A DNA stretch of 38,547 bases, taken from Anaerovibrio sp. Its GTDB lineage: Bacteria; Bacillota; Negativicutes; Selenomonadales; Selenomonadaceae. Positions within the stretch are counted from its first letter, which is position 1, and every line of letters starts with the position of its first letter. A program made the translations under genes and the position numbers. The notes beneath the pieces are model-generated. The model did no database searches, had not been told where the DNA came from, and was given only the letters and a program-made list of their open reading frames with translations. Below are positions 27,095-30,963 of this stretch, in pieces. The stretch spans positions 6,357-44,903 of the forward strand of contig JAQUZO010000004.1 in the NCBI GenBank assembly GCA_028691285.1, given 5' to 3'.

Positions 27095-27241
27095 ACATTT
27101 TCAGATATTATTTGTCCGGGACTGGCAGTTATTTTTGGCGTAAATAGATAATATGTCTTAAGTTTTTTCAGTGTGGTGACGATATATAGGTACAAGCAGG
27201 TTGAATGTAAGTATTAAGTATTAAGGATTGAGGTGGTCAGC

Positions 27242-27520
27242 ATGATGGGCAAGATTGATAAGATAACAAAAATAAGCGGCGTTCAGCTGGATGCCAACAG
27301 TCCTTGGCTGCAGCGCAGGCATCGTGATGACCAGGGCTCTGAGGACAGCTTCAAGGATATGCTGAGAGAGCGTGCCGCCAAGGGCGTACGCAGTTCGGCA
27401 TCAGCAGCTCCTGGGGAGGAGGCGGCTGTCTGGGAGGGAAATGGTGCTACGCAGTCGCTGTTTTATGAAAAGGGAGTGGATCTGGACTTCTTTTACAGAC
27501 AGCGGCTTGGAGATATGTAG
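27242..27520 (+). CDS. Uncharacterised small protein
   Basis: ATG with upstream gaggtgg; ORF runs to TAG just before tadA; no recognisable family. Confidence 0.55.
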   Translation: MMGKIDKITKISGVQLDANSPWLQRRHRDDQGSEDSFKDMLRERAAKGVRSSASAAPGEEAAVWEGNGATQSLFYEKGVDLDFFYRQRLGDM

Positions 27521-28053: not shown

Positions 28054-28767
28054 TCAGATATCCCAATGAAGATTGTCGGGGTTTGGAGTGGCTTTGTCGA
28101 TTTCCGCCAGAATCCAGGAGACATTTTCATGAGCAGCCTCAAAGGCTGTTTTCAGCTTTTCCTGATTGATAGGCGGCAGTTCGATGAAGCGCAGGGCCAT
28201 GTGCATATAATCCTTGGCTATCAGTGCCAGGCTGCGTTCAGCTGCCAGCTGTGCCTTGAAGCGGTAGCCGTAATATAAATAGCTGTTGTGGGATACCGGA
28301 ATATCCTTGAAGACTTCAATCCTTTCATCAGCTTCGGCCTCGGCCTCCTGTGTGCGGTTTGTCAAATGGAGGAGATTCCAGCGGTCAGCCCACAGCTCTC
28401 CCCGGAGAATATAGCGGTAGAGAAAATCAGAGTCTTCAGCAGCTTCCAGGGCTGCATTGATATGCTCCAGGGCTGCTTCGTAGTCCTTGGCATCTCTTTC
28501 CAGCTGGCTTAAATGCTGGAGCGCATAAACCTTTTCTTCAATATCCTCAGCGTTTTCCGGGTCCGGGTCAGCATCCATGACGGAGAGAAAAAGCTCCTTT
28601 GCAGTATCTGGACGGTTCAACTCAGGCATAGAAAGAAAATGCGCCAGCCTGGCACGGCAATGCCAGTCATCGCTGCCGCCTGCAAAGAGCTTGGCAGGCG
28701 GGCGGGCATTGGTTTCCAGTACCATATCAACCAGTAAATCAAATTGTTCCTTATTCACAGTAAACAC
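28054..28767 (-). CDS. TPR-like repeat protein, uncharacterised
   Basis: Helical repeat pattern (KVYALQHLSQLERDAKDYEAALEHINAALEAAEDSDFLYRYILRGELWADRWNLLH); stop abuts tadA stop. Confidence 0.7.
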   Translation of the reverse strand: MFTVNKEQFDLLVDMVLETNARPPAKLFAGGSDDWHCRARLAHFLSMPELNRPDTAKELFLSVMDADPDPENAEDIEEKVYALQHLSQLERDAKDYEAALEHINAALEAAEDSDFLYRYILRGELWADRWNLLHLTNRTQEAEAEADERIEVFKDIPVSHNSYLYYGYRFKAQLAAERSLALIAKDYMHMALRFIELPPINQEKLKTAFEAAHENVSWILAEIDKATPNPDNLHWDI

Positions 28768-28815: not shown

Positions 28816-29949
28816 CTAATATTTCAGCGGAATCTGATTGAAAAGCATCAGGATGGAAGCGGCACTGCCGAGCAGTACAAGCAGAAGACCGCCGTAGCCG
28901 GGCAGAGGCTCAAGGCTGGCTAAAAACAGCAGGGAAAAAACCAGCAGCAGGTTGCAGAGCAGACAAATCAGCAGACCTGTTTTTTTTCTGCCGTAAGCAG
29001 TAAGACATATACCCTTGGCGGTAGCGATGGTGCCAAGGCTGTTTGTATGAATCAGGACATCCGCCAGCTTTTTGATGCGTTCATCGGCATATTCGAGGGC
29101 AAAGCTGAGATTGGCGGTCTTGGCGGCACCTTCAAATTTGGCAGTCCTGCCTGCCGCACCGATAATCTCACCGCTGGTCTGCATGAGCAGTACCTCTTTG
29201 GCCTTTTCCATATTGTTCAGCTCACTGCGTATTTGGTCAATGTCGGCAGTCTTGCTGTAGCTTTTGGCAGTGGTGCGGTTGGCTCCGGTCAGGACGGTGG
29301 TATTGATGCCCATTTCCTTCAAAAAGCTGATATCTCCCGGTACGCTGCGCTTTGGCTTGTCCTGCAGGGTAATGAAGCCCCGGCAGAATTTTCCGATGGC
29401 AACAAAGACGATGATTTGCCCCTTGTAGGCCAGCTGGTCTGCCTTGGTAAAGAGCTCGGCTTCAATGTCGATATTTTGTTCCCGGAGAAAGGCAGCTGTG
29501 CCGAGGCTGAGCGTTTGCCGGTTCATCAGGGCTTCAGCTCCCTTGCCGGGAACGGCATTGGAAGCAGAGATTTCCGGCAGGACAAGTCCTCTGACTCTGG
29601 CCTCGTCAGCAATCGCTTCGGCAATCGGGTGGCTGATGTTCTGCTCAATGGCAGCTGCCAGCGCCAGCAGCTTGGCAGAGGAAATGCCGTTGGGATAAAT
29701 ATCCGTTACGACCGGCACGCCATAGCTGATGGTTCCGGAAAGGTTGAGTGCCAATTCTTTAAGCTGGCGCAGTGCAGGGAGCTTGCGGAGACTGCGCAGT
29801 TCAATTTTCCATTGTTTCAGCAGCCTTTTAGTCTGCCAGGGAAGCAGGATTTTCAATAAAAATGCACACAGGCAGTTGAAAAATAACAATACTGCTGCAG
29901 CAATCAGATAGAGTTTGGCAGGGTCATCATCAATCCATAAATAATCCAC
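28816..29949 (-). CDS. Truncated P1B-type ATPase-like pseudoenzyme (HAD/N-domain core with flanking TM helices, catalytic motifs lost)
   Basis: LALNLSGTISYGVPVVTDIYP aligns with the DKTGTLT-x-GxPxVTDI region; HPIAEAI and PGKGAEA retained; LTGAN for LTGDN; 377-aa uninterrupted ORF. Confidence 0.75.
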   Translation of the reverse strand: MDYLWIDDDPAKLYLIAAAVLLFFNCLCAFLLKILLPWQTKRLLKQWKIELRSLRKLPALRQLKELALNLSGTISYGVPVVTDIYPNGISSAKLLALAAAIEQNISHPIAEAIADEARVRGLVLPEISASNAVPGKGAEALMNRQTLSLGTAAFLREQNIDIEAELFTKADQLAYKGQIIVFVAIGKFCRGFITLQDKPKRSVPGDISFLKEMGINTTVLTGANRTTAKSYSKTADIDQIRSELNNMEKAKEVLLMQTSGEIIGAAGRTAKFEGAAKTANLSFALEYADERIKKLADVLIHTNSLGTIATAKGICLTAYGRKKTGLLICLLCNLLLVFSLLFLASLEPLPGYGGLLLVLLGSAASILMLFNQIPLKY

Positions 29950-30081: not shown

Positions 30082-30963
30082 GTGGAGAGATTGGTAAAGA
30101 TAAATGCTAACGCAAAAATTAATCTGACACTGGATATTTTAGGGAAGCGGCCGGACGGCTACCATGAGGTGGCCATGATCATGCAGGAAATCCTGCTGCA
30201 TGATACGCTGACGCTGACAAAGCAGGAGTCCGGCATCAGCCTGTCCATCATTGTAGAGGGGCAAAAGGGAGAGCTTCCCGCTGATGAAACCAATCTTTGC
30301 TGGAGGGCAGCGGCTCTGCTCCAAAAGGAGCTGGGAGCAGGCGGCGTCAGCATCCATCTGGTAAAGCGCATTCCCATGGCAGCCGGTCTGGCAGGCGGGT
30401 CTGCTGATGCTGCCGCTGTACTGAAGGGAATGGACCAGCTCTATGGACTGCAGCTGTCTGAGGAGAGGCTTTGCAGTCTGGGGGCGGCTTTGGGGTCGGA
30501 TATTCCCTTCTGTATCATGGGAGGCACCATGCTGGCCACCGGCAGGGGTGAGATTTTGACGCGTCTGCCTGCGCTGCCGATGACGGATGTGGTTTTGGCA
30601 AAGCCTGGGGTGGGAGTTTCCACTGCCTGGGCCTATAAGACTTATGATGCAGGCTATGACGGGCTGCATCCTGATAATGCCGCCATGCAGGAGGCTGTCG
30701 GGGCAGGCAGCTCAAAGAGAGCGGCAGAGCTTCTGTGCAATGTGCTGGAGGGGGTTACTGCCGGAAAATACGGGGTCATTTCTGCCTATAAGGAGCTTAT
30801 GCTTCAGCATGGAGCCTGGGGCAGCATGATGTCCGGCAGCGGGCCGACGGTTTTCGGATTGGCGCCGGATGCGGATACAGCGGCAGGGATTGCCGACGCA
30901 TTGAGGAGATATGACAGCGGGGCTGCAGTGTTTGTTACCAAAACTGCGGCAGGCAGGTATTGA
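30082..30963 (+). CDS. ispE: 4-diphosphocytidyl-2-C-methyl-D-erythritol kinase
   Basis: NAKINLTLDILGKRPDGYHEVAMIMQ..KRIPMAAGLAGGSADAAAVLKGM..LGSDIPFCIMGGTMLATGRGE..MSGSGPTVFGL. Confidence 0.95.
   Translation: MERLVKINANAKINLTLDILGKRPDGYHEVAMIMQEILLHDTLTLTKQESGISLSIIVEGQKGELPADETNLCWRAAALLQKELGAGGVSIHLVKRIPMAAGLAGGSADAAAVLKGMDQLYGLQLSEERLCSLGAALGSDIPFCIMGGTMLATGRGEILTRLPALPMTDVVLAKPGVGVSTAWAYKTYDAGYDGLHPDNAAMQEAVGAGSSKRAAELLCNVLEGVTAGKYGVISAYKELMLQHGAWGSMMSGSGPTVFGLAPDADTAAGIADALRRYDSGAAVFVTKTAAGRY

Follow-up and report, generated by a model that had tools for sequence, protein, structure and literature searches.

A shortened descendant of a copper-exporting P1B-type ATPase, devoid of the catalytic motifs, is maintained by selection in the Selenomonadaceae

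Introduction

The stretch of DNA analyzed here (hereinafter the window; 38,547 nucleotides of an Anaerovibrio sp. contig) encompasses, at positions 28816..29949 of the (-) strand, a gene for a 377-amino acid protein that is homologous to P1B-type ATPases and lacks the residues required for pumping. This locus raises the question of whether such a gene is a remnant of a pump undergoing decay or has been retained for a different function and, if so, which one. A preliminary description, made from the sequence of the window alone, interpreted the product as an ATP-sensing or scaffolding pseudoenzyme and named decay as the alternative. We addressed this question by comparing the gene with its relatives in the same genus, family and class.

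Architecture of the protein

The gene starts with a GTG codon, 5' of which lies a ribosome-binding-like site (AGGAAGGTGA), and continues to a stop at position 28816, so the translation bears out the intact 377-aa frame described previously. The protein matches the heavy-metal P-type ATPase model TIGR01525 (E=1.4e-34, well under the curated cut-off of this model, 346 bits), scores above the cut-off for the Pfam Hydrolase family (PF00702), and can be aligned with the Legionella CopA (3rfu; E=6.7e-30) over residues 8-366. The TIGR01525 and 3rfu matches agree with the earlier assignment to the TM6-TM8 region of P1B-ATPases: the protein consists of a TM6-like helix, the P and N domains, and TM7-TM8, with TM1-TM5, the HMA domain and the actuator domain with its TGES motif all absent. 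Helix prediction also reproduces the topology first proposed, namely, one hydrophobic helix before the soluble part (29842..29913, (-); equivalent to TM6 in the alignment) and two after it (28825..28986, (-); TM7-TM8 equivalents); an extra helix predicted at residues 177-195 falls inside the soluble domain. The AlphaFold model, for which the alignment included a single relative (L043), had a pLDDT of 39 and a pTM of 0.22, values too low for it to be informative.

Loss of the catalytic motifs

Although the window protein is a P1B-type ATPase by descent, as indicated by homology and by its orthology with a live CopA (see below), four signatures of an active P1B pump are missing: the DKTGT aspartate, the TGE motif of the actuator domain, CPx in TM6, and GDGxND along with TGD. 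In the alignment, DKTGT is replaced by NLSGT (29731..29745, (-)), with the phosphorylated aspartate changed to Asn69 (codon AAC, 29743-29745), LTGDN is replaced by LTGAN (29278..29292, (-)), and AAGRTAK occupies the GDGxND position (29137..29157, (-)), such that GRTAKF stands in place of the motif itself. All three replacements had been noted in the preliminary description, which saw no GDGxND where GAAGRTAK occurs, and the alignment confirms each of them. The CLC triplet (residues 26-28; 29866-29874, (-)), located within the TM6-equivalent helix, does lie 43 residues upstream of NLSGT and Asn69, as reported, but its proposed equivalence to CPC did not hold: position is the sole support for it, and none of 15 sister species has a cysteine pair where CLC aligns (for example, NCLWAF, NLLNLG, NFLAFF and NLSAIL), so that CLC is not a conserved metal site.

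The same losses are apparent among the dead sequences in general. When 55 dead sequences, which fall into about 28 clusters, are weighted accordingly, retention amounts to 0.04 for the phosphorylated aspartate and to 0.31 and 0.04 for the two CPC cysteines. Because the phosphorylated aspartate, TGES and the metal site are missing, the protein can neither hydrolyze ATP through the P-type cycle nor transport metal. A split pump, in which a different gene would provide the other half, was considered and rejected given that the phosphorylated aspartate itself is gone.

Conservation, selection and phyletic spread

All 16 genomes of the window's genus carry an intact orthologue, an open frame of 377-449 aa without a stop, with 39-75% identity to the window protein. 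For the genus pairs with usable dS (0.3-1.5), the dN/dS ratio of the dead gene is 0.06-0.17, in the same range as that of ispE for the same genome pairs (0.03-0.17). Together with the intact frames, these values indicate ordinary purifying selection on the protein and exclude neutral decay in this genus. Thus, the gene is a pseudoenzyme by descent that is maintained by selection, not a pseudogene with frameshifts, stops or relaxed selection; the decay alternative of the preliminary description is not borne out, and homologs in relatives are neither absent nor frameshifted, the outcome that it had named as contrary to its view.

We searched 151 genomes of the family, the single family sampled in its order and, to judge from gene content, the Selenomonadaceae of the Negativicutes, with a profile (A2) constructed from ten dead sequences, and obtained matches in 129 genomes from about 23 of the 30 genera; we inspected the motifs of 55 of these 129, so that the profile count is broader than the motif count. 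About 126 of the 129 matches contain no stop, the exceptions being G043, G074 and G140, and the dead gene is wholly missing from three genera. Genera g8, g11 and g22 possess a live CopA and no dead paralogue. The dead-type genes with an internal stop at L084:3630-5387 and in G074 and G140 might represent late decay in single lineages.

In none of the genomes sampled outside the family did we see a dead type. Among the best matches listed from the class-wide profile search, all frames were at least 743 aa long, the ordinary size of a pump. The ispE neighborhoods of 20 other genomes of the class contained no dead homologue, and one of them (L105) harbors an intact pump. No useful relative was detected in the genome-contig and viral-contig collections that were scanned.

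Origin from an ispE-linked CopA and stepwise reduction

Across the family, comparison of gene neighborhoods identifies ispE (30082..30963, (+)), the divergent neighbor of the window gene, as a syntenic anchor. Next to ispE, genera g16 (L069) and g24 (L070) encode a live CopA, with HMA, TGES, CPC, DKTGT and GDGINDAP all present. In both loci, a gene for a CsoR-type copper repressor precedes this copA, and in g24, genes for CydA, CydB and an ABC transporter follow it. Most of the other genera have the dead relative at this ispE-linked address. The preliminary description had held that its interpretation would be contradicted if sister strains had an active P1B gene of full length at the locus. 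There is none in the window's genus, and the live genes in g16 and g24 show what the ancestor of the dead gene was, rather than recent decay. In g8, a CsoR-like gene is located just upstream of ispE with no copA there (L059:4289-4615), apparently a relic of an ancestral csoR-copA pair.

In the phylogenetic tree, a branch with SH-aLRT support of 99 sets the 25 live pumps together on one side, and the ispE-linked live type is nearest to the dead sequences; the tree has long branches and is to be read with caution. Independently of the tree, the dead consensus agrees with the ispE-linked live type and not with the unlinked type in 21 alignment columns, compared to 2 columns with the reverse pattern. 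The ispE-linked live CopA of other genera is, then, the orthologue of the dead gene.

A census of live CopA found one locus per genome wherever the gene was present. Four genera, g10, g16, g23 and g24, have no CopA other than the ispE-linked type, although in g10 and g23 this type is recognized by the tree and lies away from the ispE address in these assemblies. All other genera in the census encode an unlinked live CopA of about 850 aa, and in the genomes with this gene, the ispE-linked copy is dead or gone. Given that death or absence of the ispE-linked gene coincides exactly with the presence of a second CopA, the simplest scenario is release by redundancy followed by a new use. The sole live CopA of the window genome (L120; G000:C84) is encoded at a contig end, where the gene is cut at 698 aa with its motifs intact.

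The dead copies form a series from full-length proteins through forms without a recognizable actuator domain and 4-TM forms to the 3-TM form of the window. The g6 copies (672-756 aa) can be aligned over the actuator region, with TGE changed to TGK, TGS, TGD or TGI and the phosphorylated aspartate also replaced. Five or six N-terminal helices are kept, with TGES not recognizable, in g7, g14, g20, g21 and g30, and g20 still has the aspartate (DRSGT) despite the loss of TGES and GDGxND. About two helices precede the soluble part in g2, g3, g4, g9, g13, g15, g17, g18, g19, g25, g27 and g28, and one in the window's genus. From this series, it seems that the catalytic residues were lost before most of the domains.

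Retention of the N-domain nucleotide pocket

Alignment shows that the nucleotide pocket of the N domain is complete in the window protein, with five of the five residues present (E102, H107, G135, G137 and G150; 29500..29646, (-)). These are the Glu, the His of the HP motif, the GxG and the Gly, which we take to be the established ATP contacts in the N domain of CopA and ATP7B. The preliminary description had recognized the HP and GxG motifs, and its claim can be extended to the entire set.

Across the dead sequences, the pocket residues are retained at 0.96 (Glu), 0.88 (His), 0.79, 1.0 and 1.0 (mean, 0.93), against a mean of 0.38 for the 109 columns that are invariant in live CopA and 0.39 for the P-domain columns, and none of 100,000 random draws of five invariant columns matched the retention of the pocket. 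The N domain also stands out when the proteins of the genus are compared, being better conserved than any other part (0.65 vs 0.49-0.54). Among the 13 invariant columns of the N domain itself, the pocket is only slightly above the other 8 (permutation value 0.05, marginal) because N-domain glycines outside the pocket (G545 and G559) are equally conserved; a general constraint on the fold could therefore explain part of the signal.

Genomic neighborhood

No constant neighbor of the dead gene was seen across the family, so a protein partner, if there is one, is likely encoded elsewhere. In the window, a gene for a 237-aa TPR-like protein (28054..28767, (-); all of its TPR matches are weak, and it matches nothing in NCBIfam) lies 48 bp downstream of the dead gene. 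The TPR-like gene adjoins the dead gene in the window's genus (g1) and in g5, and elsewhere is usually several kilobases away or absent, and so we downgraded the possibility of a role bound to it. The TPR-like gene is present in 101 of the 151 family genomes, often a few kilobases downstream of the cyd genes, and is highly conserved, with a dN/dS of 0.03-0.08.

The dead gene has cydA beside it in g3, g4, g9, g15, g18, g20, g30 and part of g17, as does the live CopA in g24. A role bound to cydAB was likewise downgraded: in the window's genus, cydA is unmatched in 5 of the 16 genomes, two of them 99% complete, and all five keep the dead gene. Some of the dead copies have relocated next to trmK, lgt, an amidase gene or spoVS. 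The window also contains a 95-aa ORF (27233-27520, (+)), without an NCBIfam match, between a malate/lactate dehydrogenase-like gene and tadA.

Possible functions of the inactivated ATPase

The reading that we consider reasonably probable, from the comparative sequence evidence, is that the family-wide pseudo-P-type ATPase is a membrane-anchored regulator or scaffold that putatively binds nucleotides. Thus, the part of the preliminary interpretation that is borne out is that the protein is neither a pump nor a product of decay, given the 16 intact frames, the low dN/dS, the family-wide spread and the retained pocket, whereas the ATP-sensing or scaffolding part stays at the level of prediction. 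Under this scenario, the ancestral gene beside ispE would have belonged to a csoR-copA pair, probably followed by cydAB. This CopA would have become catalytically dead in an early member of the family, most likely after a second CopA covered copper export, and would have been retained for a different job as a membrane-anchored pseudo-ATPase. Binding of ATP or a different adenine nucleotide by the N domain has probably persisted; occupancy of the pocket could alter the arrangement of the N and P domains, and the helices that are left might relay this change to a protein partner. The pseudo-ATPase would then act as an ATP-state sensor, a regulator or an assembly scaffold. A more specific version, which we put forward tentatively and with some doubt, is that a copper pump was converted once, early in the family, into a membrane ATP sensor that acts in trans to control a different protein. 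Subsequent loss of up to five TM helices and of the actuator domain would have followed, and these proteins would make up an undescribed family of bacterial pseudo-P-type ATPases.

Several alternatives have to be weighed against the regulator or scaffold reading. That the gene is a CopA pseudogene remnant, stop-free by chance, would fit the loss of all catalytic motifs, the shrinking length across genera, the three genomes with internal stops and the absence from three genera; this explanation is already refuted for the window's genus by the dN/dS values and intact frames and, given the preponderance of stop-free matches in the family and the non-random retention of N-domain residues, is highly improbable in general. 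Less implausible, but still unlikely, is a role in copper handling or cytochrome bd biogenesis, for example, as a partner that regulates the remaining CopA or as a CydAB/CydDC assembly factor in a CcoI-like capacity. The ancestral gene was a CopA next to csoR and cydA is adjacent in multiple genera, but the gene persists in the genomes without a cydA match, the CPC cysteines are largely lost, g8, g11 and g22 combine a live CopA with no dead paralogue, and the relocated copies are found in unrelated contexts.

The remaining two alternatives concern the soluble domains, and we consider both improbable. If the pocket were kept for folding alone, in a membrane anchor or scaffold that binds no nucleotide, the prevalence of glycines (three of the retained residues) and the equal conservation of G545 and G559 would be accounted for; the highly retained Glu and His, however, are side-chain ligands rather than fold glycines. 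Catalysis of a different reaction by the HAD-like P domain or the nucleotide site, for which we see slightly less reason still, draws on the HAD motif II Thr (0.83) and motif III Lys (0.79), which are fairly well kept in the same 55 sequences, so that a phosphate-binding site may persist; against this, the motif I Asp (0.04) and the motif IV residues (0.25, 0.18 and 0.60) are mostly lost, and no conserved substitute nucleophile was seen.

Relationship to known systems and implications

The closest characterized relative considered here, CopA (3rfu), is homologous to the window protein over the P domain, the N domain and TM6-TM8 but differs in having the phosphorylated aspartate, TGES, GDGxND, TM1-TM5 and the HMA domain, as well as CPC, the counterpart of which is not conserved in the dead proteins. 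CcoI, a P1B-type ATPase of the CopA2 type, is a hub of cbb3 oxidase biogenesis and thus a relative linked to the assembly of a terminal oxidase, which suggests a model for the cydAB neighborhood; unlike the dead protein, CcoI is an active, electrogenic Cu(I) pump (PMC8475189). In GC-alpha of Plasmodium, a P4-ATPase module similarly serves as an input to another protein, but the catalytic Asp of its DKTGT motif is present and required, and the module is fused to the effector (PMC7858053).

Pseudokinases and other pseudoenzymes are well known. The bacterial ones likewise combine conserved nucleotide-binding folds with the loss of catalytic residues, but have other folds (PMC10211241, PMC12599244), and P-type ATPases and transporters are not mentioned in a review of pseudoenzymes (PMC10211241). 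We found no published counterpart of a bacterial pseudo-P-type ATPase in the open-access literature covered by our search.

The existence of these genes carries a warning for genome annotation: they score as relatives of heavy-metal P-type ATPases or HAD hydrolases and yet cannot pump. For the biology of the family, the ispE locus provides a natural series from a live copper pump to a minimal 3-TM remnant, predicted to bind nucleotides, at one chromosomal address, such that one can read, and test, in which order catalysis and domains were lost and a new constraint set in.
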